DNA of 64,000 nt from assembly GCA_963969495.1 (NCBI GenBank), contig OZ018338.1, positions 46,755,206 to 46,819,205 on the forward strand. The letters are read 5' to 3'. The stretch's first letter is position 1, and the number at the start of each line of letters is the position of its first letter. The notes beneath the pieces are model-generated. The model made no database searches. It saw nothing but the letters and a program-made list of their open reading frames with translations, and was not told where the DNA came from. Both the position numbers and the translations under genes were made by a program. The stretch is from Ceratothoa steindachneri. Its lineage: Eukaryota; Arthropoda; Malacostraca; Isopoda; Cymothoidae. Below, piece after piece: positions 1,138 to 58,637 of the stretch.

Positions 1138-1189
1138 AAACTTAGCAAGTTATTGCTCATGAATCTAAGTAATATTAAACAAAAGCTGG

Positions 1190-13287: not shown

Positions 13288-14082
13288 GCAAATATCTTCA
13301 AACCTATCCAATTAAGGTCTCCGATTATAACTAATATTAGGCAAAAACGGCCAGTTTTGAGATTCGATCGATTTCTTATAAAAAGCTTGTAAACGTCAGT
13401 TTGGGGAAAATAAACCGTTTTTCAAACTTAGCAAGTTATTTCTCTCGAATCTAAGTAATATTACCCAAAACCTGGAAAAACGGCCGTTTTTAAGGTTAGG
13501 TCTATTTCCAAAAAAATGATTGAAAAGCGGGAGTTTTTTGGATGGTGCAAATATCTTCAAACCTATCCAATAAAGGTCTCCGATTTTAAGTAATATTAGG
13601 CAAAAACATGCAAAAACGGTCAGTTTTGAGATTCGATCGATTTCTTAAAAAAGCTTGAAAAACGTCTGTTTTGGGAAAATAGGCCGTTTTTCAAACTTAG
13701 CAAGTTATTGCTCTTGAATCGAAGTAATATTAACCAAAACCTTAAAAAACGGCCGTTTTTAAGGTTTGATCCATTTCCTAAAAAAGATTTAAAAAGAGGA
13801 GTTTTTTAGATGATGCAAATATCTTCAAACCTATCCAATTAGGGTCTCCGATTATAAGTAATATTATGCAAAATCATGCAAAAACGGTCAGTTTTGAGAT
13901 TAGATCGATTTCTTAAAAAAAGCTCGAAAAACGTCGGTTTTAGGAAAATAAACCGTTTTTCAAACTTAGCAAGTTATTGCTCATGAATCTAAGTAATATT
14001 AAACAAAAGCTGGAAAAACGGCCGTTTTCAGGTTTAGTCTATTTTCAAAAAAATGATTGAAAAGCGGGAGTTTGTGGATGAT
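13288..14082. repeat. Three-monomer linker s6-s7-s8
   Basis: Boxes at 13288, 13547, 13815. The s6 is the 259 bp form with GCTTGTAAACG, as in 10-mers. The s8 ends TTTTCAGGTTTAGTC, an s2-type end, which leads into s3 of the next block. Confidence 0.82.
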
Positions 14083-15694
14083 GCAAATATCTTCAAACCT
14101 ATCCAATTAGGGTCCCCGATTATAAGTAATATTATGCAAAATCATGCAAAAACGGTCAGTTTTGAGATTCGATCGATTTCTTAAAAAAAGCTCGAAAAAC
14201 GTCGGTTTTAGGAAAATAAACCGTTTTTCAAACTTAGCAAGTTATTGCTCTCGAATCTAAGTAATATTAAGCAAAAGCTGGAAAAACGGCCGTTTTTAAG
14301 GTTTGATCCATTTCCTAAAAAAGATTGAAAAATGGGAGTTTTGGGGATAATGCAAATATCTTCAAACTTAGCCAATTAAGGTCTCCGATTATAAGTAATA
14401 TTTGGCAAAAACATGCAAAAAACGTCTGTTTTGAGGTTTAATCGATTTCTTAAAAAAAGCTCGAAAAACATCAGTTTTGGGAAAATAAACCGTTTTTCAA
14501 ACTTAGCAAGTTATTGCTCTCGTATCTAAGTAATATTTACCAACACCTGGAAAAACGGCCGTTTTTAAGGTTTAAACCATTTCCTAAAAAAGATTGAAAA
14601 ACGGGACTTTTTTGGATGGTGCAAATATCTTCAAACCTATCCAATTAGGGTCTCCGATTATAAGTAATATTATGCAAAATCATGCAAAAACGGTCAGTTT
14701 TGAGATTCGATCGATTTCTTAAAAAAAGCTCGAAAAACGTCGGTTTTAGGAAAATAAACCGTTTTTCAAACTTAGCAAGTTATTGCTCTCGAATCTAAGT
14801 AATATTAAGTAAAAGCTGGAAAAACGGCCGTTTTTAAGGTTTGATCCATTTCCTAAAAAAGATTGAAAAATGGGAGTTTTTTGGATGATGCAAATATCTT
14901 CAAACCTATCCAATTAAGGTCTCCGATTATAACTAATATTAGGCAAAAACCTGCAAAAACGGCCAGTTTTGAGATTCGATCGATTTCTTATAAAAAGCTT
15001 GAAAACGTCAGTTTGGGGAAAATAAACCGTTTTTCAAACTTAGCAAGTTATTTCTCTCGAATCTAAGTAATATTACCCAAAACCTGGAAAAACGGCCGTT
15101 TTTAAGGTTAGGTCTATTTCCAAAAAAATGATTGAAAAGCGGGAGTTTTTTGGATGGTGCAAATATCTTCAAACCTATCCAATAAAGGTCTCGGATTTTA
15201 AGTAATATTAGGCAAAAACATGCAAAAACGGTCAGTTTTGAGATTCGATCGATTTCTTAAAAAAGCTCGAAAAACGTCTGTTTTGGGAAAATAAGCCGTT
15301 TTTCAAACTTAGCAAGTTATTGCTCTCGAATCGAAGTAATATTAACCAAAACCTTAAAAAACGGCCGTTTTTAAGGTTTGATCCATTTCCTAAAAAAGAT
15401 TTAAAAATAGGAGTTTTTTAGATGATGCAAATATCTTCAAACCTATCCAATTAGGGTCTCCGATTATAAGTAATATTATGCAAAATCATGCAAAAACGGT
15501 CAGTTTTGAGATTCGATCGATTTCTTAAAAAAAGCTCGAAAAACGTCGGTTTTAGGAAAATAAACCGTTTTTCAAACTTAGCAAGTTATTGCTCATGAAT
15601 CTAAGTAATATTAAACAAAAGCTGGAAAAACGGCCGTTTTCAGGTTTAGTCTATTTTCAAAAAAATGATTGAAAAGCGGGAGTTTGTGGATGAT
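14083..15694. repeat. 6-mer of 13-mer lineage, s3-s8 (1612 bp)
   Basis: Boxes at 14083, 14352, 14621, 14890, 15159, 15427, in order s3, s4, s5, full-length s6, s7, s8, then s3 again. It is a different six-mer from the island at 464-13287: it contains s4 and s5 and lacks s1, s2 and s9-s13. Confidence 0.85.
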
Positions 15695-18114
15695 GCAAAT
15701 ATCTTCAAACCTATCCAATTAGGGTCTCCGATTATAAGTAATATTATGCAAAATCATGCAAAAACGGTCAGTTTTGAGATTCGATCGATTTCTTAAAAAA
15801 AGCTCGAAAAACGTCGGTTTTAGGAAAATAAACCGTTTTTCAAACTTAGCAAGTTATTGCTCTCGAATCTAAGTAATATTAAGCAAAAGCTGGAAAAACG
15901 GCCGTTTTTAAGGTTTGATCCATTTCCTAAAAAAGATTGAAAAATGGGAGTTTTGGGGATAATGCAAATATCTTCAAACTTAGCCAATTAAGGTCTCCGA
16001 TTATAAGTAATATTTGGCAAAAACATGCAAAAAACGTCTGTTTTGAGGTTTAATCGATTTCTTAAAAAAAGCTCGAAAAACATCAGTTTTGGGAAAATAA
16101 ACCGTTTTTCAAACTTAGCAAGTTATTGCTCTCGTATCTAAGTAATATTTACCAACACCTGGAAAAACGGCCGTTTTTAAGGTTTAAACCATTTCCTAAA
16201 AAAGATTGAAAAACGGGACTTTTTTGGATGGTGCAAATATCTTCAAACCTATCCAATTAGGGTCTCCGATTATAAGTAATATTATGCAAAATCATGCAAA
16301 AACGGTCAGTTTTGAGATTCGATCGATTTCTTAAAAAAAGCTCGAAAAACGTCGGTTTTAGGAAAATAAACCGTTTTTCAAACTTAGCAAGTTATTGCTC
16401 TCGAATCTAAGTAATATTAAGCAAAAGCTGGAAAAACGGCCGTTTTTAAGGTTTGATCCATTTCCTAAAAAAGATTGAAAAATGGGAGTTTTTTGGATGA
16501 TGCAAATATCTTCAAACCTATCCAATTAAGGTCTCCGATTATAACTAATATTAGGCAAAACCTGCAAAAACGGCCAGTTTTGAGATTCGATCGATTTCTT
16601 ATAAAAAGCTTGAAAACGTCAGTTTGGGGAAAATAAACCGTTTTTCAAACTTAGCAAGTTATTTCTCTCGAATCTAAGTAATATTACCCAAAACCTGGAA
16701 AAACGGCCGTTTTTAAGGTTAGGTCTATTTCCAAAAAAATGATTGAAAAGCGGGAGTTTTTTGGATGGTGCAAATATCTTCAAACCTATCCAATAAAGGT
16801 CTCGGATTTTAAGTAATATTAGGCAAAAACATGCAAAAACGGTCAGTTTTGAGATTCGATCGATTTCTTAAAAAAGCTCGAAAAACGTCTGTTTTGGGAA
16901 AATAAGCCGTTTTTCAAACTTAGCAAGTTATTGCTCTCGAATCGAAGTAATATTAACCAAAACCTTAAAAAACGGCCGTTTTTAAGGTTTGATCCATTTC
17001 CTAAAAAAGATTTAAAAATAGGAGTTTTTTGGATGATGCAAATATCTTCAAACCTATCCAATTAGGGTCTCCGATTATAAGTAATATTATGCAAAATCAT
17101 GCAAAAACAGGCAGTTTTGAGATTCGATCGATTTCTTAAAAAAAGCTCGAAAAACGTCGGTTTTAGGAAAATAAACCGTTTTTCAAACTTAGCAAGTTAT
17201 TGCTCATGAATCTAAGTAATATTAAACAAAAGCTGGAAAAACGGCCGTTTTTAAGGTTTAAACCATTTCCTAAAAAAAGATTGAAAATCGGGAGTTTTTT
17301 GGATGATGCAAATATCTTCAAACCTATCCAATTAAGGTCTCCGATTATTATTAATATTAGGCAAAAACATGCAAAAACGGCCAGTATTGGGATTCAATCG
17401 ATTTCTTAAAAAAAGCTTGAAAAACGTCAGTTTTGGGAAAATAAACCGTTTTTCAAACTTAGAGAGTTACTGTTCCCATATCTGAGGAATATTAACCAAA
17501 ACCTGGATAAAACGGCCGTTTTCAAGGTTAGGTCTATTTCCAAAAAAATGATTGAAAAGCGGGAGTTTGTGGATGATGCAAATATCTTCAAACCTATCCA
17601 ATTAGGGTCTCCGATTATAAGTAATATTATGCAAAATCATGCAAAAACGGTTAGGTTTGAGATTCGATCGATTTCTTAAAAAAAGCTCGAAAAACATCTG
17701 TTTTGGGAAAATAAGCCGTTTTTCAAACTTAGCAAGTTATTGCTCTCGAATCGAAGTAATATTATCCAAAACCTTAAAAAACGGCCGTTTTTAAGGTTTG
17801 ATCCATTTCCTAAAAAAGATTTAAAAATAGGAGTTTTTTAGATGATGCAAATATCTTCAAACCTATCCAATTAGGGTCTCCGATTATAAGTAATATTATG
17901 CAAAATCATGCAAAAACGGTCAGTTTTGAGATTCGATCGATTTCTTAAAAAAAGCTCGAAAAACGTCGGTTTTAGGAAAATAAACCGTTTTTCAAACTTA
18001 GCAAGTTATTGCTCATGAATCTAAGTAATATTAAACAAAAGCTGGAAAAACGGCCGTTTTCAGGTTTAGTCTATTTTCAAAAAAATGATTGAAAAGCGGG
18101 AGTTTGTGGATGAT
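15695..18114. repeat. 9-mer HOR s3-s11, copy 1 (2420 bp)
   Basis: Boxes at 15695, 15964, 16233, 16502, 16770, 17038, 17308, 17578, 17847. s12, s13, s1 and s2 are missing: s11 runs directly into s3 through a CGGCCG followed by TTTTCAGGTTTAGTC. One A is missing in its s6 (AGGCAAAACCTGC near 16555). Confidence 0.87.
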
Positions 18115-20536
18115 GCAAATATCTTCAAACCTATCCAATTAGGGTCTCCGATTATAAGTAATATTATGCAAAATCATGCAAAAACGGTCAGTTTTGAGAT
18201 TCGATCGATTTCTTAAAAAAAGCTCGAAAAACGTCGGTTTTAGGAAAATAAACCGTTTTTCAAACTTAGCAAGTTATTGCTCTCGAATCTAAGTAATATT
18301 AAGCAAAAGCTGGAAAAACGGCCGTTTTTAAGGTTTGATCCATTTCCTAAAAAAGATTGAAAAATGGGAGTTTTGGGGATAATGCAAATATCTTCAAACT
18401 TAGCCAATTAAGGTCTCCGATTATAAGTAATATTTGGCAAAAACATGCAAAAAAGGTCTGTTTTGAGGTTTAATCGATTTCTTAAAAAAAGCTCGAAAAA
18501 CATCAGTTTTGGGAAAATAAACCGTTTTTCAAACTTAGCAAGTTATTGCTCTCGTATCTAAGTAATATTTACCAACACCTGGAAAAACGGCCGTTTTTAA
18601 GGTTTAAACCATTTCCTAAAAAAGATTGAAAAACGGGACTTTTTTGGATGGTGCAAATATCTTCAAACCTATCCAATTAGGGTCTCCGATTATAAGTAAT
18701 ATTATGCAAAATCATGCAAAAACGGTCAGTTTTGAGATTCGATCGATTTCTTAAAAAAAGCTCGAAAAACGTCGGTTTTAGGAAAATAAACCGTTTTTCA
18801 AACTTAGCAAGTTATTGCTCTCGAATCTAAGTAATATTAAGCAAAAACTGGAAAAACGGCCGTTTTTAAGGTTTGATCCATTTCCTAAAAAAGATTGAAA
18901 AATGGGAGTTTTTTGGATGATGCAAATATCTTCAAACCTATCCAATTAAGGTCTCCGATTATAACTAATATTAGGCAAAAACCTGCAAAAACGGCCAGTT
19001 TTGAGATTCGATCGATTTCTTATAAAAAGCTTGAAAACGTCAGTTTGGGGAAAATAAACCGTTTTTCAAACTTAGCAAGTTATTTCTCTCGAATCTAAGT
19101 AATATTACCCAAAACCTGGAAAAAAGGCCGTTTTTAAGGTTAGGTCTATTTCCAAAAAAATGATTGAAAAGCGGGAGTTTTTTGGATGGTGCAAATATCT
19201 TCAAACCTATCCAATAAAGGTCTCGGATTTTAAGTAATATTAGGCAAAAACATGCAAAAACGGTCAGTTTTGAGATTCGATCGATTTCTTAAAAAAGCTC
19301 GAAAAACGTCTGTTTTGGGAAAATAAGCCGTTTTTCAAACTTAGCAAGTTATTGCTCTCGAATCGAAGTAATATTAACCAAAACCTTAAAAAACGGCCGT
19401 TTTTAAGGTTTGATCCATTTCCTAAAAAAGATTTAAAAATAGGAGTTTTTTGGATGATGCAAATATCTTCAAACCTATCCAATTAGGGTCTCCGATTATA
19501 AGTAATATTATGCAAAATCATGCAAAAACAGGCAGTTTTGAGATTCGATCGATTTCTTAAAAAAAGCTCGAAAAACGTCGGTTTTAGGAAAATAAACCGT
19601 TTTTCAAACTTAGCAAGTTATTGCTCATGAATCTAAGTAATATTAAACAAAAGCTGGAAAAACGGCCGTTTTTAAGGTTTAAACCATTTCCTAAAAAAAG
19701 ATTGAAAATCGGGAGTTTTTTGGATGATGCAAATATCTTCAAACCTATCCAATTAAGGTCTCCGATTATTATTAATATTAGGCAAAAACATGCAAAAACG
19801 GCCAGTATTGGGATTCAATCGATTTCTTAAAAAAAGCTTGAAAAACGTCAGTTTTGGGAAAATAAACCGTTTTTCAAACTTAGAGAGTTACTGTTCCCAT
19901 ATCTGAGGAATATTAACCAAAACCTGGATAAAACGGCCGTTTTCAAGGTTAGGTCTATTTCCAAAAAAATGATTGAAAAGCGGGAGTTTGTGGATGATGC
20001 AAATATCTTCAAACCTATCCAATTAGGGTCTCCGATTATAAGTAATATTATGCAAAATCATGCAAAAACGGTTAGGTTTGAGATTCGATCGATTTCTTAA
20101 AAAAAGCTCGAAAAACATCTGTTTTGGGAAAATAAGCCGTTTTTCAAACTTAGCAAGTTATTGCTCTCGAATCGAAGTAATATTATCCAAAACCTTAAAA
20201 AACGGCCGTTTTTAAGGTTTGATCCATTTCCTAAAAAAGATTTAAAAATAGGAGTTTTTTAGATGATGCAAATATCTTCAAACCTATCCAATTAGGGTCT
20301 CCGATTATAAGTAATATTATGCAAAATCATGCAAAAACAGGCAGTTTTGAGATTCGATCGATTTCTTAAAAAAAGCTCGAAAAACGTCGGTTTTAGGAAA
20401 ATAAACCGTTTTTCAAACTTAGCAAGTTATTGCTCATGAATCTAAGTAATATTAAACAAAAGCTGGAAAAACGGCCGTTTTTAAGGTTTAAACCATTTCC
20501 TAAAAAAGATTGAAAATCGGGAGTTTTTTGGATGAT
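18115..20536. repeat. 9-mer HOR s3-s11, copy 2 (2422 bp)
   Basis: Boxes at 18115, 18384, 18653, 18922, 19191, 19459, 19729, 19999, 20268. Nearly identical to copy 1. Private changes include AAAAGGTCTG in s4 and AAAAAGGCCG near 19123, where the palindrome centre is changed. The s11 then continues into a D-type monomer rather than s3. Confidence 0.87.
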
Positions 20537-20805: not shown

Positions 20806-23485
20806 GCAAATATTTTAAAACCTATTCAATTTAGGTCTCCGATTATAAGTAATATTATGCAAAATCATGTAAAAACGGTCAGTTTTGAGATTCGATCGAT
20901 TTCTTAAAAAAAGCTCGAAAAACGTCGGTTTTAGGAAAATAAACCGTTTTTCAAACTTAGCAAGTTATTGCTCATGAATCTAAGTAATATTAAACAAAAG
21001 CTGGAAAAACGGCCGTTTTTAAGGTTTAAACCATTTCCTAAAAAAGATTGAAAAATGGGAGTTTTGGGGATAATGCAAATATCTTCAAACCTATCCAATT
21101 AAGGTCTCCGATTATAAGTAATATTAGGCAAAAACATGCAAAAACGGCCAGTTTTGGGATTCAATCGATTTCTTAAAAAAAGCTTGAAAAACGTCAGTTT
21201 TGGGAAAATAAACCGTTTTTCAAACTTACAGATTTACTGTTCCCATATCTGAGGAATATTAACCAAAACCTGGAAAAACGGCCGTTTTCAAGGTTTAGTA
21301 TATTTCCAAAAAAATGATTGAAAAGCGGGAGTTTGTGGATGATGCAAATATCTTCAAACCTATCCAATTAGGGTCTCCGATTATAAGTAATATTATGCAA
21401 AATCATGCAAAAACGGTCAGTTTTGAGATTCGATCGATTTCTTAAAAAAAGCTCGAAAAACGTCGGTTTTAGGAAAATAAACCGTTTTTCAAACTTAGCA
21501 AGTTATTGCTCTCGAATCTAAGTAATATTAAGCAAAAGCTGGAAAAACGGCCGTTTTTAAGGTTTGATCCATTTCCTAAAAAAGATTGAAAAATGGGAGT
21601 TTTTTGGATGATGCAAATATCTTCAAACCTATCCAATTAAGGTCTCCGATTATAACTAATATTAGGCAAAAACGGCCAGTTTTGAGATTCGATCGATTTC
21701 TTATAAAAAGCTTGTAAACGTCAGTTTGGGGAAAATAAACCGTTTTTCAAACTTAGCAAGTTATTTCTCTCGAATCTAAGTAATATTACCCAAAACCTGG
21801 AAAAACGGCCGTTTTTAAGGTTAGTTCTATTTCCAAAAAAATGATTGAAAAGCGGGAGTTTTTTGGATGGTGCAAATATCTTCAAACCTATCCAATAAAG
21901 GTCTCCGATTTTAGGTAATATTAGGCAAAAACATGCAAAAACGGTCAGTTTTGAGATTCGATCGATTTCTTAAAAAAAGCTTGAAAAACGTCTGTTTTGG
22001 GAAAATAAGCCGTTTTTCAAACTTAGCAAGTTATTGCTCTTGAATCGAAGTAATATTAACCAAAACCTTAAAAAACGGCCGTTTTTAAGGTTTGATCCAT
22101 TTCCTAAAAAAGATTTAAAAATAGGAGTTTTTTAGATGATGCAAATATCTTCAAACCTATCCAATTAGGGTCTCCGATTATAAGTAATATTATGCAAAAT
22201 CATGCAAAAACGGTCAGTTTTGAGATTCGATCGATTTCTTAAAAAAAGCTCGAAAAACGTCGGTTTTAGGAAAATAAACCGTTTTTCAAACTTAGCAAGT
22301 TATTGCTCGTGAATCTAAGTAATATTAAACAAAAGCTGGAAAAACGGCCGTTTTCAAGGTTAGGTCTATTTCCAAAAAAATGATTGAAAAGCGGGAGTTT
22401 GTGGATGATGCAAATATCTTCAAACCTATAAAATTAGGGTCTCCGATTATAAGTAATATTATGCAAAATCATGCAAAAACGGTTAGGTTTGAGATTCGAT
22501 CGATTTCTTAAAAAAAGCTCGAAAAACATCTGTTTTGGGAAAATAAGCCGTTTTTCAAACTTAGCAAGTTATTGCTCTCGAATCGAAGTAATATTATCCA
22601 AAACCTTAAAAAACGGCCGTTTTTAAGGTTTGATCCATTTCCTAAAAAAGATTTAAAAATAGGAGTTTTTTAGATGATGCAAATATCTTCAAACCTATCC
22701 AATTAGGGTCTCCGATTATAAGTCATATTATGCAAAATCATGCAAAAACAGGCAGTTTTGAGATTCGATCGATTTCTTAAAAAAAGCTCGAAAAACGTCG
22801 GTTTTAGGAAAATAAACCGTTTTTCAAACTTAGCAAGTTATTGCTCATGAATCTAAGTAATATTAAACAAAAGCTGGAAAAACGGCCGTTTTTAAGGTTT
22901 AAACCATTTCCTAAAAAAGATTGAAAATCGGGAGTTTTTTGGATGATGCAAATATCTTCAAACCTATCCAATTAAGGTCTCCGATTATAAGTAATATTAG
23001 GCAAAAACATGCAAAAACGTCCAGTTTTGGGATTCAATCAATTTCTTAAAAAAAGCTTGAAAAACGTCAGTTTTGGGAAAATAAACCGATTTTCAAACTT
23101 AGAGAGTTACTGTTCCCATATCTGAGGAATATTAACCAAAACCTGGAAAAACGGCCGTTTTTGAGGTTTGATCCATTTCCTAAAAAAGATTGAAAATCGG
23201 GAGTTTTTTGGATGATGCAAATATCTTCAAACCTATCCAATTAAGGTCTCCGATTATAAGTAATATTAGGCAAAAACATGCAAAAACGGCCAGTTTTGGG
23301 ATTCAATCAATTTCTTAAAAAAAGCTTGAAAAACGTCAGTTTTGGGAAAATAAACCGATTTTCAAACTTAGAGAGTTACTGTTCCCATATCTGAGGAATA
23401 TTAACCAAAACCTGGAAAAACGGCCGTTTTTGAGGTTTGATCCATTTTCTAAAAAAGATTGAAAAACGGGAGTTTTTTGGATAAT
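20806..23485. repeat. 10-mer HOR copy 1 (2680 bp)
   Basis: Boxes at 20806, 21075, 21344, 21613, 21872, 22141, 22410, 22679, 22948, 23217. Order s1 s2 s3 s6 s7 s8 s10 s11 s12 s13, so s4, s5 and s9 are missing. s6 has the 10 bp deletion. The s8-to-s10 switch is at CGGCCG (22345-22350). The s12 carries the CGTCCAG variant. Confidence 0.9.
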
Positions 23486-26165
23486 GCAAATATTTTAAAA
23501 CCTATTCAATTTAGGTCTCCGATTATAAGTAATATTATGCAAAATCATGTAAAAACGGTCAGTTTTGAGATTCGATCGATTTCTTAAAAAAAGCTCGAAA
23601 AACGTCGGTTTTAGGAAAATAAACCGTTTTTCAAACTTAGCAAGTTATTGCTCATGAATCTAAGTAATATTAAACAAAAGCTGGAAAAACGGCCGTTTTT
23701 AAGGTTTAAACCATTTCCTAAAAAAGATTGAAAAATGGGAGTTTTGGGGATAATGCAAATATCTTCAAACCTATCCAATTAAGGTCTCCGATTATAAGTA
23801 ATATTAGGCAAAAACATGCAAAAACGGCCAGTTTTGGGATTCAATCGATTTCTTAAAAAAAGCTTGAAAAACGTCAGTTTTGGGAAAATAAACCGTTTTT
23901 CAAACTTACAGATTTACTGTTCCCATATCTGAGGAATATTAACCAAAACCTGGAAAAACGGCCGTTTTCAAGGTTTAGTATATTTCCAAAAAAATGATTG
24001 AAAAGCGGGAGTTTGTGGATGATGCAAATATCTTCAAACCTATCCAATTAGGGTCTCCGATTATAAGTAATATTATGCAAAATCATGCAAAAACGGTGAG
24101 TTTTGAGATTCGATCGATTTCTTAAAAAAAGCTCGAAAAACGTCGGTTTTAGGAAAATAAACCGTTTTTCAAACTTAGCAAGTTATTGCTCTCGAATCTA
24201 AGTAATATTAAGCAAAAGCTGGAAAAACGGCCGTTTTTAAGGTTTGATCCATTTCCTAAAAAAGATTGAAAAATGGGAGTTTTTTGGATGATGCAAATAT
24301 CTTCAAACCTATCCAATTAAGGTCTCCGATTATAACTAATATTAGGCAAAAACGGCCAGTTTTGAGATTCGATCGATTTCTTATAAAAAGCTTGTAAACG
24401 TCAGTTTGGGGAAAATAAACCGTTTTTCAAACTTAGCAAGTTATTTCTCTCGAATCTAAGTAATATTACCCAAAACCTGGAAAAACGGCCGTTTTTAAGG
24501 TTAGTTCTATTTCCAAAAAAATGATTGAAAAGCGGGAGTTTTTTGGATGGTGCAAATATCTTCAAACCTATCCAATAAAGGTCTCCGATTTTAGGTAATA
24601 TTAGGCAAAAACATGCAAAAACGGTCAGTTTTGAGATTCGATCGATTTCTTAAAAAAAGCTTGAAAAACGTCTGTTTTGGGAAAATAAGCCGTTTTTCAA
24701 ACTTAGCAAGTTATTGCTCTTGAATCGAAGTAATATTAACCAAAACCTTAAAAAACGGCCGTTTTTAAGGTTTGATCCATTTCCTAAAAAAGATTTAAAA
24801 ATAGGAGTTTTTTAGATGATGCAAATATCTTCAAACCTATCCAATTAGGGTCTCCGATTATAAGTAATATTATGCAAAATCATGCAAAAACGGTCAGTTT
24901 TGAGATTCGATCGATTTCTTAAAAAAAGCTCGAAAAACGTCGGTTTTAGGAAAATAAACCGTTTTTCAAACTTAGCAAGTTATTGCTCGTGAATCTAAGT
25001 AATATTAAACAAAAGCTGGAAAAACGGCCGTTTTCAAGGTTAGGTCTATTTCCAAAAAAATGATTGAAAAGCGGGAGTTTGTGGATGATGCAAATATCTT
25101 CAAACCTATAAAATTAGGGTCTCCGATTATAAGTAATATTATGCAAAATCATGCAAAAACGGTTAGGTTTGAGATTCGATCGATTTCTTAAAAAAAGCTC
25201 GAAAAACATCTGTTTTGGGAAAATAAGCCGTTTTTCAAACTTAGCAAGTTATTGCTCTCGAATCGAAGTAATATTATCCAAAACCTTAAAAAACGGCCGT
25301 TTTTAAGGTTTGATCCATTTCCTAAAAAAGATTTAAAAATAGGAGTTTTTTAGATGATGCAAATATCTTCAAACCTATCCAATTAGGGTCTCCGATTATA
25401 AGTCATATTATGCAAAATCATGCAAAAACAGGCAGTTTTGAGATTCGATCGATTTCTTAAAAAAAGCTCGAAAAACGTCGGTTTTAGGAAAATAAACCGT
25501 TTTTCAAACTTAGCAAGTTATTGCTCATGAATCTAAGTAATATTAAACAAAAGCTGGAAAAACGGCCGTTTTTAAGGTTTAAACCATTTCCTAAAAAAGA
25601 TTGAAAATCGGGAGTTTTTTGGATGATGCAAATATCTTCAAACCTATCCAATTAAGGTCTCCGATTATAAGTAATATTAGGCAAAAACATGCAAAAACGG
25701 CCAGTTTTGGGATTCAATCAATTTCTTAAAAAAAGCTTGAAAAACGTCAGTTTTGGGAAAATAAACCGATTTTCAAACTTAGAGAGTTACTGTTCCCATA
25801 TCTGAGGAATATTAACCAAAACCTGGAAAAACGGCCGTTTTTGAGGTTTGATCCATTTCCTAAAAAAGATTGAAAATCGGGAGTTTTTTGGATGATGCAA
25901 ATATCTTCAAACCTATCCAATTAAGGTCTCCGATTATAAGTAATATTAGGCAAAAACATGCAAAAACGGCCAGTTTTGGGATTCAATCAATTTCTTAAAA
26001 AAAGCTTGAAAAACGTCAGTTTTGGGAAAATAAACCGATTTTCAAACTTAGAGAGTTACTGTTCCCATATCTGAGGAATATTAACCAAAACCTGGAAAAA
26101 CGGCCGTTTTTGAGGTTTGATCCATTTTCTAAAAAAGATTGAAAAACGGGAGTTTTTTGGATAAT
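23486..26165. repeat. 10-mer HOR copy 2 (2680 bp)
   Basis: Same order and same length as copy 1. It has CGGCCAG in s12 rather than CGTCCAG, and a CGGTGAG variant in s3 near 24095. It corresponds by a 6177 bp shift to the 10-mer at 29663. Confidence 0.9.
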
Positions 26166-26434
26166 GCAAATATTTTAAAACCTATTCAATTTAGGTCTCC
26201 GATTATAAGTAATATTATGCAAAATCATGTAAAAACGGTCAGTTTTGAGATTCGATCGATTTCTTAAAAAAAGCTCGAAAAACGTCGGTTTTAGGAAAAT
26301 AAACCGTTTTTCAAACTTAGCAAGTTATTGCTCATGAATCTAAGTAATATTAAACAAAAGCTGGAAAAACGGCCGTTTTTAAGGTTTAAACCATTTCCTA
26401 AAAAAGATTGAAAAATGGGAGTTTTGGGGATAAT
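26166..26434 (+). repeat. Monomer subtype s1 (reference copy)
   Basis: Diagnostic: GGATAATGCAAATATTTT before AAAACCTATTCAATTTAGG, the only subtype with a changed box. The body has TATGCAAAATCATG, CGGTCAG, CTCGAAAAACGTCGG and GCTCATGAATC. Most copies left of 42 kb, and the one at 52462, read CATGTAAAAAC; most copies to the right read CATGCAAAAAC; the 6-mer island reads CATGCACAAAC. Confidence 0.85.
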
Positions 26435-26702
26435 GCAAATATCTTCAAACCTATCCAATTAAGGTCTCCGATTATAAGTAATATTAGGCAAAAAAATGCA
26501 AAAACGGCCAGTTTTGGGATTCAATCGATTTCTTAAAAAAAGCTTGAAAAACGTCAGTTTTGGGAAAATAAACCGTTTTTCAAACTTAGCAAGTTATTGC
26601 TCATGAATCTAAGTAATATTAAACAAAAGCTGGAAAAACGGCCGTTTTCAGGTTTAGTCTATTTCCAAAAAAATGATTGAAAAGCGGGAGTTTGTGGATG
26701 AT
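26435..26702 (+). repeat. Monomer subtype s2 (reference copy)
   Basis: Diagnostic: GAGTTTTGGGGATAATG before the box, CAGTTTTGGGATTCAATCG, and AAGCTTGAAAAACGTCAG. In 13-mers the second half is s8-like (GCTCATGAATC, then TTTTCAGGTTTAGTC). In 10-mers it reads CTTACAGATTTACTG and AGGTTTAGTATATTTCC. The 6-mer island has GTTTATGGG and CCATTTTCAAAC instead. This copy has a private change, AAAAAAATGC. Confidence 0.82.
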
Positions 26703-26971
26703 GCAAATATCTTCAAACCTATCCAATTAGGGTCTCCGATTATAAGTAATATTATGCAAAATCATGCAAAAACGGTCAGTTTTGAGATTCGATCGATTTC
26801 TTAAAAAAAGCTCGAAAAACGTCGGTTTTAGGAAAATAAACCGTTTTTCAAACTTAGCAAGTTATTGCTCTCGAATCTAAGTAATATTAAGCAAAAGCTG
26901 GAAAAACGGCCGTTTTTAAGGTTTGATCCATTTCCTAAAAAAGATTGAAAAATGGGAGTTTTGGGGATAAT
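26703..26971 (+). repeat. Monomer subtype s3 (reference copy)
   Basis: Diagnostic: GAGTTTGTGGATGATG before the box, then AATTAGGG, TATGCAAAATCATGC, CGTCGG, GCTCTCGAATC, AAGCAAAAGCTGG and TTTGATCC. Apart from its prefix the body is almost the same as s5. That identity would allow an s3-by-s5 crossover that removes s4 and s5, which is the difference seen between 13-mer and 10-mer. Confidence 0.85.
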
Positions 26972-44689: not shown

Positions 44690-45227
44690 GCAAATATTTT
44701 AAAACCTATTCAATTTAGGTCTCCGATTATAAGTAATATTATGCAAAATCATGCAAAAACGGTCAGTTTTGAGATTCGATCGATTTCTTAAAAAAAGCTC
44801 GAAAAACGTCGGTTTTAGGAAAATAAACCGTTTTTCAAACTTAGCAAGTTATTGCTCATGAATCTAAGTAATATTAAACAAAAGCTGGAAAAACGGCCGT
44901 TTTTAAGGTTTAAACCATTTCCTAAAAAAGATTGAAAAATGGGAGTTTTGGGGATAATGCAAATATCTTCAAACCTATCCAATTAAGGTCTCCGATTATA
45001 AGTAATATTAGGCAAAAACATGCAAAAACGGCCAGTTTTGGGATTCAATCGATTTCTTAAAAAAAGCTTGAAAAACGTCAGTTTTGGGAAAATAAACCGT
45101 TTTTCAAACTTAGAGAGTTACTGTTCTCATATCTGAGGAATATTAACCAAAACCTGGAAAAACGGCCGTTTTTGAGGTTTGATCCATTTTCTAAAAAAGA
45201 TTGAAAAACGGGAGTTTTTTGGATAAT
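44690..45227. repeat. Extra s1-s2 dimer (538 bp)
   Basis: Boxes at 44690 and 44959, followed by another s1 at 45228. The second monomer starts as s2 and ends as s13 (GAGAGTTACTG, TTGAGGTTTGATCC). It is an independent duplication of the same subtype pair that was duplicated at 4734-5810. Confidence 0.87.
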
Positions 45228-47907: not shown

Positions 47908-50049
47908 GCAAATATTTTAAAACCTATTCAATTTAGGTCTCCGATTATAAGTAATATTATGCAAAATCATGCAAAAACGGTCAGTTTTGAGATTCGATCG
48001 ATTTCTTAAAAAAAGCTCGAAAAACGTCGGTTTTAGGAAAATAAACCGTTTTTCAAACTTAGCAAGTTATTGCTCTCGAATCTAAGTAATATTAAGCAAA
48101 AGCTGGAAAAACGGCCGTTTTTAAGGTTTGATCCATTTCCTAAAAAAGATTGAAAAATGGGAGTTTTTTGGATGATGCAAATATCTTCAAACCTATCCAA
48201 TTAAGGTCTCCGATTATAACTAATATTAGGCAAAAACGGCCAGTTTTGAGATTCGATCGATTTCTTATAAAAAGCTTGTAAACGTCAGTTTGGGGAAAAT
48301 AAACCGTTTTTCAAACTTAGCAAGTTATTTCTCTCGAATCTAAGTAATATTACCCAAAACCTGGAAAAACGGCAGTTTTTAAGGTTAGGTCTATTTCCAA
48401 AAAAATGATTGAAAAGCGGGAGTTTTTTGGATGGTGCAAATATCTTCAAACCTATCCAATAAAGGTCTCCGATTTTAGGTAATATTAGGCAAAAACATGC
48501 AAAAACGGTCAGTTTTGAGATTCGATCGATTTCTTAAAAAAAGCTTGAAAAACGTCTGTTTTGGGAAAATAAGCCGTTTTTCAAACTTAGCAAGTTATTG
48601 CTCTTGAATCGAAGTAATATTAACCAAAACCTTAAAAAACGGCCGTTTTTAAGGTTTGATCCATTTCCTAAAAAAGATTTAAAAATAGGAGTTTTTTAGA
48701 TGATGCAAATATCTTCAAACCTATCCAATTAGGGTCTCCGATTATAAGTAATATTATGCAAAATCATGCAAAAACGGTCAGTTTTGAGATTCGATCGATT
48801 TCTTAAAAAAAGCTCGAAAAACGTCGGTTTTAGGAAAATAAACCGTTTTTCAAACTTAGCAAGTTATTGCTCATGAATCTAAGTAATATTAAACAAAAGC
48901 TGGAAAAACGGCCGTTTTCAAGGTTAGGTCTATTTCCAAAAAAATGATTGAAAAGCGGGAGTTTGTGGATGATGCAAATATCTTCAAACCTATCCAATTA
49001 GGGTCTCCGATTATAAGTAATATTATGCAAAATCATGCAAAAACGGTTAGGTTTGAGATTCGATCGATTTCTTAAAAAAAGCTCGAAAAACATCTGTTTT
49101 GGGAAAATAAGCCGTTTTTCAAACTTAGCAAGTTATTGCTCTCGAATCGAAGTAATATTATCCAAAACCTTAAAAAACGGCCGTTTTTAAGGTTTGATCC
49201 ATTTCCTAAAAAAGATTTAAAAATAGGAGTTTTTTAGATGATGCAAATATCTTCAAACCTATCCAATTAGGGTCTCCGTTTTTAAGTAATATTATGCAAA
49301 ATCATGCAAAAACAGGCAGTTTTGAGATTCGATCGATTTCTTAAAAAAAGCTCGAAAAACGTCGGTTTTAGGAAAATAAACCGTTTTTCAAACTTAGCAA
49401 GTTATTGCTCATGAATCTAAGTAATATTAAACAAAAGCTGGAAAAACGGCCGTTTTTAAGGTTTAAACCATTTCCTAAAAAAGATTGAAAATCGGGAGTT
49501 TTTTGGATGATGCAAATATCTTCAAACCTATCCAATTAAGGTCTCCGATTATAAGTAATATTAGGCAAAAACATGCAAAAACGGCCAGTTTTGGGATTCA
49601 ATCAATTTCTTAAAAAAAGCTTGAAAAACGTCAGTTTTGGGAAAATAAACCGATTTTCAAACTTAGAGAGTTACTGTTCCCATATCTGAGGAATATTAAC
49701 CAAAACCTGGAAAAACGGCCGTTTTTGAGGTTTGATCCATTTCCTAAAAAAGATTGAAAATCGGGAGTTTTTTGGATGATGCAAATATCTTCAAACCTAT
49801 CCAATTAAGGTCTCCGATTATAAGTAATATTAGGCAAAAACATGCAAAAACGGCCAGTTTTGGGATTCAATCAATTTCTTAAAAAAAGCTTGAAAAACGT
49901 CAGTTTTGGGAAAATAAACCGATTTTCAAACTTAGAGAGTTACTGTTCCCATATCTGAGGAATATTAACCAAAACCTGGAAAAACGGCCGTTTTTGAGGT
50001 TTGATCCATTTTCTAAAAAAGATTGAAAAACGGGAGTTTTTTGGATAAT
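47908..50049. repeat. 8-mer HOR (2142 bp)
   Basis: Boxes at 47908, 48177, 48436, 48705, 48974, 49243, 49512, 49781. Order s1 s6 s7 s8 s10 s11 s12 s13. The s1 acquires the s3 second half (GCTCTCGAATC, AAGCAAAAGCTGG), so s2 and s3 were lost by a crossover between the similar bodies of s1 and s3. Confidence 0.9.
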
Positions 50050-52461
50050 GCAAATATTTTAAAACCTATTCAATTTAGGTCTCCGATTATAAGTAATATT
50101 ATGCAAAATCATGCAAAAACGGTCAGTTTTGAGATTCGATCGATTTCTTAAAAAAAGCTCGAAAAACGTCGGTTTTAGGAAAATAAACCGTTTTTCAAAC
50201 TTAGCAAGTTATTGCTCATGAATCTAAGTAATATTAAACAAAAGCTGGAAAAACGGCCGTTTTTAAGGTTTAAACCATTTCCTAAAAAAGATTGAAAAAT
50301 GGGAGTTTTGGGGATAATGCAAATATCTTCAAACCTATCCAATTAAGGTCTCCGATTATAAGTAATATTAGGCAAAAACATGCAAAAACGGCCAGTTTTG
50401 GGATTCAATCGATTTCTTAAAAAAAGCTTGAAAAACGTCAGTTTTGGGAAAATAAACCGTTTTTCAAACTTACAGAGTTACTGTTCCCATATCTGAGGAA
50501 TATTAACCAAAACCTGGAAAAACGGCCGTTTTCAAGGTTTAGTATATTTCCAAAAAAATGATTGAAAAGCGGGAGTTTGTGGATGATGCAAATATCTTCA
50601 AACCTATCCAATTAGGGTCTCCGATTATAAGTAATATTATGCAAAATCATGCAAAAACGGTCAGTTTTGAGATTCGATCGATTTCTTAAAAAAAAGCTCG
50701 AAAAACGTCGGTTTTAGGAAAATAAACCGTTTTTCAAACTTAGCAAGTTATTGCTCTCGAATCTAAGTAATATTAAGCAAAAGCTGGAAAAACGGCCGTT
50801 TTTAAGGTTTGATCCATTTCCTAAAAAAGATTGAAAAATGGGAGTTTTTTGGATGATGCAAATATCTTCAAACCTATCCAATTAAGGTCTCCGATTATAA
50901 CTAATATTAGGCAAAAACGGCCAGTTTTGAGATTCGATCGATTTCTTATAAAAAGCTTGTAAACGTCAGTTTGGGGAAAATAAACCGTTTTTCAAACTTA
51001 GCAAGTTATTTCTCTCGAATCTAAGTAATATTACCCAAAACCTGGAAAAACGGCCGTTTTTAAGGTTAGGTCTATTTCCAAAAAAATGATTTAAAAGCGG
51101 GAGTTTTTTGGATGGTGCAAATATCTTCAAACCTATCCAATAAAGGTCTCCGATTTTAGGTAATATTAGGCAAAAACATGCAAAAACGGTTAGTTTTGAG
51201 ATTCGATCGATTTCTTAAAAAAAGCTTGAAAAACGTCTGTTTTGGGAAAATAAGCCGTTTTTCAAACTTAGCAAGTTATTGCTCTTGAATCGAAGTAATA
51301 TTAACCAAAACCTTAAAAAACGGCCGTTTTTAAGGTTTGATCCATTTCCTAAAAAAGATTTAAAAATAGGAGTTTTTTAGATGATGCAAATATCTTCAAA
51401 CCTATCCAATTAGGGTCTCCGATTATAAGTAATATTATGCAAAATCATGCAAAAACGGTCAGTTTTGAGATTCGATCGATTTCTTAAAAAAAGCTCGAAA
51501 AACATCTGTTTTGGGAAAATAAGCCGTTTTTCAAACTTAGCAAGTTATTGCTCTCGAATCGAAGTAATATTATCCAAAACCTTAAAAAACGGCCGTTTTT
51601 AAGGTTTGATCCATTTCCTAAAAAAGATTTAAAAATAGGAGTTTTTTAGATGATGCAAATATCTTCAAACCTATCCAATTAGGGTCTCCGATTATAAGTA
51701 ATATTATGCAAAATCATGCAAAAACAGGCAGTTTTGAGATTCGATCGATTTCTTAAAAAAAGCTCGAAAAACGTCGGTTTTAGGAAAATAAACCGTTTTT
51801 CAAACTTAGCAAGTTATTGCTCATGAATCTAAGTAATATTAAACAAAAGCTGGAAAAACGGCCGTTTTTAAGGTTTAAACCATTTCCTAAAAAAGATTGA
51901 AAATCGGGAGTTTTTTGGATGATGCAAATATCTTCAAACCTATCCAATTAAGGTCTCCGATTATAAGTAATATTAGGCAAAAACATGCAAAAACGGCCAG
52001 TTTTGGGATTCAATCAATTTCTTAAAAAAAGCTTGAAAAACGTCAGTTTTGGGAAAATAAACCGATTTTCAAACTTAGAGAGTTACTGTTCCCATATCTG
52101 AGGAATATTAACCAAAACCTGGAAAAACGGCCGTTTTTGAGGTTTGATCCATTTCCTAAAAAAGATTGAAAATCGGGAGTTTTTTGGATGATGCAAATAT
52201 CTTCAAACCTATCCAATTAAGGTCTCCGATTATAAGTAATATTAGGCAAAAACATGCAAAAACGGCCAGTTTTGGGATTCAATCAATTTCTTAAAAAAAG
52301 CTTGAAAAACGTCAGTTTTGGGAAAATAAACCGATTTTCAAACTTAGAGAGTTACTGTTCCCATATCTGAGGAATATTAACCAAAACCTGGAAAAACGGC
52401 CGTTTTTGAGGTTTGATCCATTTTCTAAAAAAGATTGAAAAACGGGAGTTTTTTGGATAAT
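50050..52461. repeat. 9-mer HOR lacking s10 as a separate monomer (2412 bp)
   Basis: Boxes at 50050, 50319, 50588, 50858, 51117, 51386, 51655, 51924, 52193. The monomer at 51386 starts as s8 and changes to s10 at CTCGAAAAAC (then ATCTG, AATAAGCCG). s8 and s10 are thereby fused into one. One extra A near 50695. Confidence 0.9.
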
Positions 52462-55140
52462 GCAAATATTTTAAAACCTATTCAATTTAGGTCTCCGATT
52501 ATAAGTAATATTATGCAAAATCATGTAAAAACGGTCAGTTTTGAGATTCGATCGATTTCTTAAAAAAAGCTCGAAAAACGTCGGTTTTAGGAAAATAAAC
52601 CGTTTTTCAAACTTAGCAAGTTATTGCTCATGAATCTAAGTAATATTAAACAAAAGCTGGAAAAACGGCCGTTTTTAAGGTTTAAACCATTTCCTAAAAA
52701 AGATTGAAAAATGGGAGTTTTGGGGATAATGCAAATATCTTCAAACCTATCCAATTAAGGTCTCCGATTATAAGTAATATTAGGCAAAAACATGCAAAAA
52801 CGGCCAGTTTTGGGATTCAATCGATTTCTTAAAAAAAGCTTGAAAAACGTCAGTTTTGGGAAAATAAACCGTTTTTCAAACTTACAGCTTTACTGTTCCC
52901 ATATCTGAGGAATATTAACCAAAACCTGGAAAAACGGCCGTTTTCAAGGTTTAGTATATTTCCAAAAAAATGATTGAAAAGCGGGAGTTTGTGGATGATG
53001 CAAATATCTTCAAACCTATCCAATTAGGGTCTCCGATTATAAGTAATATTATGCAAAATCATGCAAAAACGGTCAGTTTTGAGATTCGATCGATTTCTTA
53101 AAAAAAGCTCGAAAAACGTCGGTTTTAGGAAAATAAACCGTTTTTCAAACTTAGCAAGTTATTGCTCTCGAATCTAAGTAATATTAAGCAAAACTGGAAA
53201 AACGGCCGTTTTTAAGGTTTGATCCATTTCCTAAAAAAGATTGAAAAATGGGAGTTTTTTGGATGATGCAAATATCTTCAAACCTATCCAATTAAGGTCT
53301 CCGATTATAACTAATATTAGGCAAAAACGGCCAGTTTTGAGATTCGATCGATTTCTTATAAAAAGCTTGTAAACGTCAGTTTGGGGAAAATAAACCGTTT
53401 TTCAAACTTAGAGAGTTACTGTTCCCATATCTGAGGAATATTAACCAAAACCTGGAAAAACGGCCGTTTTTAAGGTTAGGTCTATTTCCAAAAAAATGAT
53501 TGAAAAGCGGGAGTTTTTTGGATGGTGCAAATATCTTCAAACCTATCCAATAAAGGTCTCCGATTTTAGGTAATATTAGGCAAAAACATGCAAAAACGGT
53601 CAGTTTTGAGATTCGATCGATTTCTTAAAAAAAGCTTGAAAAACGTCTGTTTTGGGAAAATAAGCCGTTTTTCAAACTTAGCAAGTTATTGCTCTTGAAT
53701 CGAAGTAATATTAACCAAAACCTTAAAAAACGGCCGTTTTTAAGGTTTGATCCATTTCCTAAAAAAGATTTAAAAATAGGAGTTTTTTAGATGATGCAAA
53801 TATCTTCAAACCTATCCAATTAGGGTCTCCGATTATAAGTAATATTATGCAAAATCATGCAAAAACGGTCAGTTTTGAGATTCGATCGATTTCTTAAAAA
53901 AAGCTCGAAAAACGTCGGTTTTAGGAAAATAAACCGTTTTTCAAAGTTAGCAAGTTATTGCTCGTGAATCTAAGTAATATTAAACAAAAGCTGGAAAAAC
54001 GGCCGTTTTCAAGGTTAGGTCTATTTCCAAAAAAATGATTGAAAAGCGGGAGTTTGTGGATGATGCAAATATCTTCAAACCTATCCAATTAGGGTCTCCG
54101 ATTATAAGTAATATTATGCAAAATCATGCAAAAACGGTTAGGTTTGAGATTCGATCGATTTCTTAAAAAAAGCTCGAAAAACATCTGTTTTGGGAAAATA
54201 AGCCGTTTTTCAAACTTAGCAAGTTATTGCTCTCGAATCGAAGTAATATTATCCAAAACCTTAAAAAACGGCCGTTTTTAAGGTTTGATCCATTTCCTAA
54301 AAAAGATTTAAAAATAGGAGTTTTTTAGATGATGCAAATATCTTCAAACCTATCCAATTAGGGTCTCCGATTATAAGTAATATTATGCAAAATCATGCAA
54401 AAACAGGCAGTTTTGAGATTCGATCGATTTCTTAAAAAAAGCTCGAAAAACGTCGGTTTTAGGAAAATAAACCGTTATTCAAACTTAGCAAGTTATTGCT
54501 CATGAATCTAAGTAATAGTAAACAAAAGCTGGAAAAACGGCCGTTTTTAAGGTTTGATCCATTTCCTAAAAAAGATTGAAAATCGGGAGTTTTTTGGATG
54601 ATGCAAATATCTTCAAACCTATCCAATTAAGGTCTCCGATTATAAGTAATATTAGGCAAAAACATGCAAAAACGGCCAGTTTTGGGATTCAATCAATTTC
54701 TTAAAAAAAGCTTGAAAAACGTCAGTTTTGGGAAAATAAACCGATTTTCAAACTTAGAGAGTTACTGTTCCCATATCTGAGGAATATTAACCAAAACCTG
54801 GAAAAACGGCCGTTTTTGAGGTTTGATCCATTTCCTAAAAAAGATTGAAAATCGGGATTTTTTTGGATGATGCAAATATCTTCAAACCTATCCAATTAAG
54901 GTCTCCGATTATAAGTAATATTAGGCAAAAACATGCAAAAACGGCCAGTTTTGGGATTCAATCAATTTCTTAAAAAAAGCTTGAAAAACGTCAGTTTTGG
55001 GAAAATAAACCGATTTTCAAACTTAGAGAGTTACTGTTCCCATATCTGAGGAATATTAACCAAAACCTGGAAAAACGGCCGTTTTTGAGGTTTGATCCAT
55101 TTTCTAAAAAAGATTGAAAAACGGGAGTTTTTTGGATAAT
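52462..55140. repeat. 10-mer HOR copy 7 with a conversion patch in s6 (2679 bp)
   Basis: Boxes at 52462, 52731, 53000, 53268, 53527, 53796, 54065, 54334, 54603, 54872. In s6, about 53410-53445 reads GAGAGTTACTGTTCCC and TTAACCAAAACC, the s9/s12/s13 version, in place of TTATTTCTCTCG and TTACCC, with s6 sequence on both sides. The s3 has CAAAACTGG (one base missing). Confidence 0.88.
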
Positions 55141-58100
55141 GCAAATATTTTAAAACCTATTCAATTTAGGTCTCCGATTATAAGTAATATTATGCAAAAT
55201 CATGCAAAAACGGTCAGTTTTGAGATTCGATCGATTTCTTAAAAAAAGCTCGAAAAACGTCGGTTTTAGGAAAATAAACCGTTTTTCAAACTTAGCAAGT
55301 TATTGCTCATGAATCTAAGTAATATTAAACAAAAGCTGGAAAAACGGCCGTTTTTAAGGTTTAAACCATTTCCTAAAAAAGATTGAAAAATGGGAGTTTT
55401 GGGGATAATGCAAATATCTTCAAACCTATCCAATTAAGGTCTCCGATTATAAGTAATATTAGGCAAAAACATGCAAAAACGGCCAGTTTTGGGATTCAAT
55501 CGATTTCTTAAAAAAAGCTTGAAAAACGTCAGTTTTGGGAAAATAAACCGTTTTTCAAACTTAGCAAGTTATTGCTCATGAATCTAAGTAATATTAAACA
55601 AAAGCTGGAAAAACGGCCGTTTTCAGGTTTAGTCTATTTCCAAAAAAATGATTGAAAAGCGGGAGTTTGTGGATGATGCAAATATCTTCAAACCTATCCA
55701 ATTAGGGTCTTCGATTATAAGTAATATTATGCAAAATCATGCAAAAACGGTCAGTTTTGAGATTCGATCGGTTTCTTAAAAAAAGCTCGAAAAACGTCGG
55801 TTTTAGGAAAATAAACCGTTTTTCAAACTTAGCAAGTTATTGCTCTCGAATCTAAGTAATATTAAGCAAAAGCTGGAAAAACGGCCGTTTTTAAGGTTTG
55901 ATCCATTTCCTAAAAAAGATTGAAAAATGGGAGTTTTGGGGATAATGCAAATATCTTCAAACTTAGCCAATTAAGGTCTCCGATTATAAGTAATATTTGG
56001 CAAAAACATGCAAAAAACGTCTGTTTTGAGGTTTAATCGATTTCTTAAAAAAAGCTCGAAAAACATCAGTTTTGGGAAAATAAACCGTTTTTCAAACTTA
56101 GCAAGTTATTGCTCTCGTATCTAAGTAATATTTACCAACACCTGGAAAAACGGCCGTTTTTAAGGTTTAAACCATTTCCTAAAAAAGATTGAAAAACGGG
56201 ACTTTTTTGGATGGTGCAAATATCTTCAAACCTATCCAATTAGGGTCTCCGATTATAAGTAATATTATGCAAAATCATGCAAAAACGGTCAGTTTTGAGA
56301 TTCGATCGATTTCTTAAAAAAAGCTCGAAAAACGTCGGTTTTAGGAAAATAAACCGTTTTTCAAACTTAGCAAGTTATTGCTCTCGAATCTAAGTAATAT
56401 TAAGCAAAAGCTGGAAAAACGGCCGTTTTTAAGGTTTGATCCATTTCCTAAAAAAGATTAAAAAATAGGAGTTTTTTGGATGATGCAAATATCTTCAAAC
56501 CTATCCAATTAAGGTCTCCGATTATAACTAATATTAGGCAAAAACCTGCAAAAACGGCCAGTTTTGAGATTCGATCGATTTCTTATAAAAAGCTTGAAAA
56601 CGTCAGTTTGGGGAAAATAAACCGTTTTTCAAACTTAGCAAGTTATTTCTCTCGAATCTAAGTAATATTACCCAAAACCTGGAAAAACGGCCGTTTTTAA
56701 GGTTAGGTCTATTTCCAAAAAAATGATTGAAAAGCGGGAGTTTTTTGGATGGTGCAAATATCTTCAAACCTATCCAATAAAGGTCTCGGATTTTAAGTAA
56801 TATTAGGCAAAAACATGCAAAAACGGTCAGTTTTGAGATTCGATCGATTTCTTAAAAAAGCTCGAAAAACGTCTGTTTTGGGAAAATAAGCCGTTTTTCA
56901 AACTTAGCAAGTTATTGCTCTCGAATCGAAGTAATATTAACCAAAACCTTAAAAAACGGCCGTTTTTAAGGTTTGATCCATTTCCTAAAAAAGATTTAAA
57001 AATAGGAGTTTTTTAGATGATGCAAATATCTTCAAACCTATCCAATTAGGGTCTCCGATTATAAGTAATATTATGCAAAATCATGCAAAAACAGGCAGTT
57101 TTGAGATTCGATCGATTTCTTAAAAAAAGCTCGAAAAACGTCGGTTTTAGGAAAATAAACCGTTTTTCAAACTTAGCAAGTTATTGCTCATGAATCTAAG
57201 TAATATTAAACAAAAGCTGGAAAAACGGCCGTTTTTAAGGTTTAAACCATTTCCTAAAAAAAGATTGAAAATCGGGAGTTTTTTGGATGATGCAAATATC
57301 TTCAAACCTATCCAATTAATGTCTCCGATTATTATTAATATTAGGCAAAAACATGCAAAAACGGCCAGTATTGGGATTCAATCGATTTCTTAAAAAAAGC
57401 TTGAAAAACGTCAGTTTTGGGAAAATAAACCGTTTTTTAAACTTAGAGAGTTACTGTTCCCATATCTGAGGAATATTAACCAAAACCTGGATAAAACGGC
57501 CGTTTTCAAGGTTAGGTCTATTTCCAAAAAAATGATTGAAAAGCGGGAGTTTGTGGATGATGCAAATATCTTCAAACCTATCCAATTAGGGTCTCCGATT
57601 ATAAGTAATATTATGCAAAATCATGCAAAAACGGTTAGGTTTGAGATTCGATCGATTTCTTAAAAAAAGCTCGAAAAACATCTGTTTTGGGAAAATAAGC
57701 CGTTTTTCAAACTTAGCAAGTTATTGCTCTCGAATCGAAGTAATATTATCCAAAACCTTAAAAAACGGCCGTTTTTAAGGTTTGATCCATTTCCTAAAAA
57801 AGATTTAAAAATAGGAGTTTTTTAGATGATGCAAATATCTTCAAACCTATCCAATTAGGGTCTCCGATTATAAGTAATATTATGCAAAATCATGCAAAAA
57901 CAGGCAGTTTTGAGATTCGATCGATTTCTTAAAAAAAGCTCGAAAAACGTCGGTTTTAGGAAAATAAACCATTTTTCAAACTTAGCAAGTTATTGCTCAT
58001 GAATCTAAGTAATATTAAACAAAAGCTGGAAAAACGGCGGTTTTTAAGGTTTAAAACATTTCCTAAAAAAGATTGAAAATCGGGAGTTTTTTGGATGATG

Positions 58101-58637
58101 CAAATATCTTCAAACCTATCCAATTAAGGTCTCCGATTATAAGTAATATTAGGCAAAAACATGCAAAAACGGCCAGTTTTGGGATTCAATCAATTTCTTA
58201 AAAAAAGCTTGAAAAACGTCAGTTTTGGGAAAATAAACCGATTTTCAAACTTAGAGAGTTACTGTTCCCATATCTGAGGAATATTAACCAAAACCTGGAA
58301 AAACGGCCGTTTTTGAGGTTTGATCCATTTCCTAAAAAAGATTGAAAATCGGGAGTTTTTTGGATGATGCAAATATCTTCAAACCTATCCAATTAAGGTC
58401 TCCGATTATAAGTAATATTAGGCAAAAACATGCAAAAACGGCCAGTTTTGGGATTCAATCAATTTCTTAAAAAAAGCTTGAAAAACGTCAGTTTTGGGAA
58501 AATAAACCGATTTTCAAACTTAGAGAGTAACTGTTCCCATATCTGAGGAATATTAACCAAAACCTGGAAAAACGGCCGTTTTTGAGGTTTGATCCATTTT
58601 CTAAAAAAGATTGAAAAACGGGAGTTTTTTGGATAAT
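55141..58637. repeat. 13-mer HOR copy 4 (3497 bp)
   Basis: Boxes at 55141, 55410, 55678, 55947, 56216, 56485, 56754, 57022, 57292, 57562, 57831, 58100, 58369. Same length as the reference copy and the same s1-s13 order. Shares CGGCGG in s11 (near 58037) with the 13-mer at 38521. Private changes include TTCGATTATAAG near 55710 and AATTAATGTC near 57317. Confidence 0.9.

Follow-up and report, generated by a model that had tools for sequence, protein, structure and literature searches.

In the D17Z1 alpha satellite of human chromosome 17, a 16-monomer higher-order repeat (HOR) coexists with 15-, 14-, 13- and 12-mer variants; the parts of the published accounts that we draw on (PMC3966626, PMC9549924) ascribe the shorter variants to deletion by unequal exchange and describe a 13-mer with characteristic mutations. 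In human centromeres, CentromereArchitect identified hybrid monomers, which join the prefix of one type to the suffix of another and were proposed, in the portion of that report used here, as starts of new monomers (PMC8336445). For satellites of root-knot nematodes (Meloidogyne), the sections of PMC3694981 that concern us report that HORs rearrange and that their junctions carry short conserved motifs. Here we describe a 64-kb stretch of DNA from the isopod Ceratothoa steindachneri (contig OZ018338.1, positions 46,755,206 to 46,819,205; hereafter the window) that consists entirely of one satellite array, whose monomer measures 269 bp according to Tandem Repeats Finder. This is a known kind of array but an unusually readable one, because within 64 kb its losses, gains and patches, as well as a composite super-repeat, are traceable to specific junction monomers. 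Like D17Z1 in those accounts, it holds a predominant HOR with shorter variants, and its 10-mer, as the D17Z1 13-mer, also differs by mutations. Our analysis indicates that the array probably arose from an order like that of its 13-mers, reshaped by both losses and gains of monomers.

The box GCAAATAT occurs exactly 238 times in the window, and all 237 spacings between its copies fall in a single length class of 259–271 bp, as expected for tandem monomers of a HOR. Most of them (217) measure 267–271 bp; the other 20, at 259–260 bp, belong to types B and I, to the altered monomers at 53268 and 43086 and to one flank monomer. An additional 135-bp period with 67% matches makes the 269-bp monomer look like two related halves, unlike the 171-bp monomer of D17Z1. 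Cutting at the box, aligning and clustering the 237 complete monomers at a threshold of 4 differences gave 39 clusters, 19 of them with at least three members; the monomers comprise 113 distinct sequences, with many exact copies. Monomer types, designated by letters, are mostly 10–45 alignment columns apart, and whole 13-mers are only 10–16 columns apart, so that diverged monomers form near-identical units. Between 13288 and 58637, 125 of the 169 monomers fall in clusters of the 13-mer, 33 in clusters found only in the 10-mer (S, I, T and U), three in K and eight in none of these.

Three 13-mers, beginning at positions 26166, 38521 and 55141, share the order F V L M N O P D Q R D E E (s1–s13) over about 3.5 kb; s11 of the third, a D, narrowly misses its cluster. 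In the fourth, which begins at 32343, s5–s6 is patched and the order is F V L M D W P D Q R D E E. The initial annotation had predicted thirteen monomer groups. We recovered 11, as D and E each fill two positions, and the doubled positions can nonetheless be told apart: s8 differs from s11 by one indel at column 239, which all six D copies between P and Q carry and all 18 that are flanked by R and E or by C and E lack; four sites separate s12 from s13, and three separate s3 from s5. When the array was cut instead at a second phase, set by a palindrome about 205 columns downstream, the same orders and again 11 clusters were returned. U and K lost their separate clusters in this recut; that the presence of a hybrid monomer depends on the cut point is a warning already given in the relevant part of PMC9549924.

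The 10-mer (t1–t10; n = 7, of which three contain one or two altered monomers) has the order F S N I T U R D E E. Its ordered embedding in the 13-mer order costs 52, below the lowest of 500 shuffles (67), and the proposal that s1–s13 contains the shorter orders is thereby borne out. Of the absences first listed for it (s4, s5 and s9), that of s4 stands; t3 is identical to s5 and differs from s3 at three sites, so the missing pair is s3 and s4, or s4 and s5 if the crossover lay inside L/N, and t6 (U) is a fusion of s8 and s9. Nor is the 10-mer plainly a trimmed 13-mer, because its S, I and T (t2, t4 and t5) differ from V, O and P (s2, s6 and s7): at the nine shared positions the consensus sequences differ by 0, 16, 0, 3, 6, 2, 1, 1 and 0 changes.

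Order cannot decide between deletion and duplication in a tandem array, because skipping k of n monomers is the same as repeating n − k; fusion monomers and the identity of neighbours can separate the two. In a junction test, in which the neighbours of a monomer predict its two parents, no other pair fitted better than the predicted one in 10 of 13 cases. The predicted pair was the unique best for the monomers at 47908 (Z, as F/N, 0 mismatches), 5003 (A/E13, 0) and 33688 (Q/O, 1), and best or tied best for those at 33418 (N/D, 0) and 44959 (S/E13, 1) and for K as U/V (1). U as D/Q, with three mismatches, was best together with two other pairs, and the monomer at 51386 as U/R, with none, together with three, because U, K, L and N share their 5′ part. 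Two tests, of t3 and of E in the 6-mer, were powerless because one parent alone fits. The breakpoint intervals differ (columns 28–64, 78–121, 146–158 and 205–219), and fusion types recur, with eight copies of U, eight of C and three of K. Like the human hybrid monomers, as far as the cited portion describes them, these join two types as prefix and suffix; unlike them, U, C and K are regular members of repeated units.

Applied unit by unit, these criteria show that loss is no general rule for the shorter units, and the direction first proposed, from 13 monomers to fewer, holds for some of them only. In the 10-mer, the s8/s9 step appears to be a genuine loss, because Q and D fail as mosaics containing U (six or more mismatches; irreversibility was checked for U only) and M stands 22 mismatches from any two-parent mosaic. 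The 9-mer at 50050, for which a fusion of s8 and s10 had been suggested, holds a U/R fusion and looks like a true loss, less firm than that in the 10-mer; it has no specially close neighbour. The left 6-mer array may likewise reflect loss, less firmly backed by fusion monomers than in the 10-mer. The 8-mer at 47908 had been counted among independent losses. Across its seven intact monomers, which follow Z, it differs by 1 column from its immediate left neighbour and by 8, 8, 9, 19, 21 and 23 columns from six other units (the last three of which hold altered monomers), so one local duplication is the simplest account. Most simply, the two two-mers that lead from F to F are gains of two monomers.

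The blocks that begin with K also run counter to serial loss. Unit starts at 14083, 15695 and 18115, as well as 47908 and 50050, do fall on exact boxes; however, the 6-mer at 14083, described as s3–s8, has the fusion K as its sixth monomer rather than s8, and after 18115, the second of two 9-mers described as lacking s12, s13, s1 and s2, the order continues D E F, not K. The K monomers at 13815, 15427 and 17847 are fusions ending in V, and L to R of the 9-mers match s3–s10 with no substitution in the consensus. The three K have a common breakpoint interval, and column 236 holds a T in each of them but not in D, U or V; they are therefore copies of one event. The same T recurs in 20 of the 33 E copies, in both e monomers and in two E-like monomers that are altered. 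An origin of K uniquely from s11 and s2 was ruled out, as L/V, N/V, U/V and older-D/V all leave 1 mismatch. Conversely, V itself matches S up to column 132–158 and then K, with one mismatch (column 236). Either K came from V, or V came from S and K by recombination between 10-mer and 9-mer; the S/V-L-M order is older than K under either direction. Flank monomer f was rejected as proof of an ancestral patch in V, being N-type at columns 172–173, where V is D/F-type.

From 21075 to 58369 the strongest period is 23 monomers, which the initial annotation had missed: 48% of 117 monomer pairs at this lag differ by at most two positions, whereas at lags 10 and 13 the proportions are 22% (of 130 pairs) and 13% (of 127). 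Over the three 10+13 copies (Table 1), 40 of 46 successive lag-23 pairs are within two columns. The copies are 33, 55 and 26 columns apart; the s5–s6 patch makes up 30 columns of the 33 and of the 55, and an altered E at 38253 adds 9 to the 55 and the 26. This alternation of long and short units as a 23-mer, together with several junctions that are better read as duplications, sets the array apart from D17Z1.

The history that we consider probable starts from an ancestral monomer order like s1–s13, reshaped by unequal homologous exchange in the 269-bp register and by conversion, as described for human alpha satellite. Exchange inside monomers would have caused the losses (s8/s9 giving U in the 10-mer, U/R at 51386, and T to R giving C in the left 6-mers); local gains would have added the 8-mer, the two-mers and the copied K blocks; short conversion tracts would have left unit length unchanged; and an adjacent 10-mer and 13-mer would then have been repeated jointly as the 23-monomer unit. 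The orders, the fusion monomers with their breakpoint intervals, the neighbour identities, the patches and the 23-monomer period are read directly from the array; the ancestor, the sequence of events and the choice of unequal crossover over single-strand annealing or replication slippage are what we infer. Several results weigh against this history. The left 6-mer embeds poorly in the 13-mer order (cost 37, equalled or bettered by 25 of 500 shuffles); the predicted parents were beaten for K as D/V (by three pairs), for C (by one) and for H (by one); and M has no source in the window except its own copies. The diverged flank contains both V-L-M-like and V-N-I-like orders, so the presence or absence of s3–s4 cannot be polarised. 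Divergence between 10-mer and 13-mer is also uneven along the unit (Monte Carlo P = 0.012 without t2; 0 of 100,000 with t2).

In a tentative alternative, to which we give distinctly less credence, the extant 13-mers are secondary, formed between a 10-mer and a K-type 9-mer by crossovers in s2 (S into K) and in the shared R, as F [S/K = V] L M N O P D Q R D E E. The mosaic structure of V, the substitution-free match of the 9-mers to s3–s10 and the direct adjacency of K-type 9-mers and 10-mers all fit such a composite, as does the contrast between t7–t10 and t1, which differ from s10–s13 and s1 by 2, 1, 1, 0 and 0 changes, and t2, t4 and t5, which differ by 16, 3 and 6; a separate D/F-like patch in V would no longer be needed. 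The initial annotation had held that 10-mers dominating the rest of the array, with insertion breakpoints inside monomers of the 13-mers, would count against it, and s2 as S/K goes part of the way there. However, the reverse, with K as older D/V, fits equally well; a patch in V from the upstream F, which is identical at these 14 sites, would resemble the patch at 43086; and the uneven divergence would also result from homogenisation of the shared core where 10- and 13-mers are interleaved. Even here, K still implies an older S/V-L-M order. If the 13-mer is composite, recombination between families would lengthen HORs, and it would be unsafe to assume, as is habitual, that the longest unit is ancestral. 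A pure deletion series, with a 13-mer ancestor and each shorter unit an independent loss, agrees with the sub-order relation and with the U and 51386 fusions, but is improbable: the near-identity of the 8-mer to its neighbour, the single shared K fusion and the two-mers read as gains do not show independent loss of every shorter unit, and with S, I and T differing from V, O and P the shared monomers are not equally diverged. Mis-joining of near-identical units during assembly could produce odd unit lengths and false fusion monomers, and the many exact copies would invite it; given that the fusions have different breakpoints and that U, C and K recur, we regard this as very improbable.

Returning to the favoured ancestry from a 13-mer-like order, the left 6-mer stands closer to the 10-mer than to the 13-mer. 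Its A, B and C differ by 4–5 changes from S, I and T, C is close to a T/R fusion, and the 6-mer embeds in the 10-mer at a cost of 16, which equals the unordered minimum and was reached by 4 of 500 shuffles. Its consensus was built from seven start points, six in phase (one of them A B C D G F) and one (index 40) out of phase, which should leave the majority letters of the monomers unchanged. Most D copies (24 of 29), across 6-, 10- and 13-mers, carry AG at columns 71/73. GT stands there in all eight U, all three K, both flank D, two 6-mer D and the fused D at 33418. Among the other main types, column 71 is G in all but M, and column 73 is T or C. AG is therefore probably derived and the U fusion earlier than it, and D was probably homogenised across the three HOR types after that fusion, in what amounts to a dated sweep.

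Two patches lie inside single monomers. That at 43086–43344 reads T/I/T with 1 mismatch and carries the 10-bp deletion of the upstream neighbour together with nearby sites; that at 53268–53526 reads I, then A or E, then O, with none. Both are conversion-like. A two-mer of one kind, in which F follows an A/E or S/E fusion, arose in each of two separate arrays; the breakpoints differ, at columns 256–263 (5003–5541) and 146–158 (44690–45227).

A perfect palindrome, AAAACGGCCGTTTT, occupies alignment columns 205–218 of each monomer and is exact in 231 of 237, making it the most conserved 14-column stretch (the median 14-column window is exact in 102 monomers). It is a possible protein-binding or structural site. 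A high conservation of this kind recalls the Meloidogyne HORs, as far as the cited sections go; unlike those, the array shows neither CENP-B-core matches nor a significant excess of breakpoints at the palindrome. A hotspot there was tried and rejected: 3 of 10 junction monomers (U, 33688 and H) have breakpoints confined to it, compared with 1.56 expected (P of at least 3, 0.19), and counting K as a fourth gives 0.049, but the K interval (columns 132–219) is wide. Site association across the palindrome is low (mean r2 of 0.11, versus 0.20 for distance-matched pairs elsewhere), not below that at columns 190–200 (0.09–0.11) and near the value at 130–140 (0.13–0.14). With a 269-bp monomer and no match in the array to the CENP-B-box core pattern, this is not alpha satellite of the human type, which has a 171-bp monomer and the CENP-B box in part. 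No RNA families or tRNAs were found in the window, an exact 25-mer of the satellite had no match in viral contig or genome contig collections, and literature searches by sequence string and monomer length, a weak negative, found no published description of it.

Table 1 Units and junctions along the array, in window coordinates.
Feature	Positions	Strand	Remarks
Left array: seven 6-mers A B C D E F, a two-mer, final A B C D	195–13018	+	One 6-mer with altered E
Two-mer A F in left array	5003–5541	+	
H, junction monomer between 6-mer array and following region	13019–13287	+	S/N, 4 mismatches; predicted E13/N, 6
KLMNOP KLMNOPDQR KLMNOPDQR	13815–20267	+	One 6-mer, two 9-mers
Two 10-mers F S N I T U R D E E	20806–26165	+	2 differences between them
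23-monomer (10+13) repeat, three copies	23486–42019	+	Starts 23486, 29663, 35844
13-mer s1–s13	26166–29662	+	
13-mer with replaced s5–s6 tract	32343–35843	+	N/D fusion 33418, Q/O fusion 33688
13-mer s1–s13	38521–42019	+	
10-mer	42020–44689	+	t5 at 43086 with conversion-like patch
Two-mer F [S/E13]	44690–45227	+	Fusion at 44959
10-mer	45228–47907	+	Near-identical to following 8-mer
8-mer	47908–50049	+	First monomer Z
9-mer F S N I T [U/R] D E E	50050–52461	+	Fusion at 51386
10-mer	52462–55140	+	Patched t4 at 53268, altered t8 at 54334
13-mer s1–s13	55141–58637	+	s11 slightly altered
Diverged flank	58638–64000	+	

Of the 19 complete monomers of the diverged flank, 13 belong to none of the main clusters; the flank may represent an old array edge. 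The transition into it is abrupt, its M-like and L-like monomers are doubled (L M h M N), and an e–f pair is repeated 14 monomers apart.

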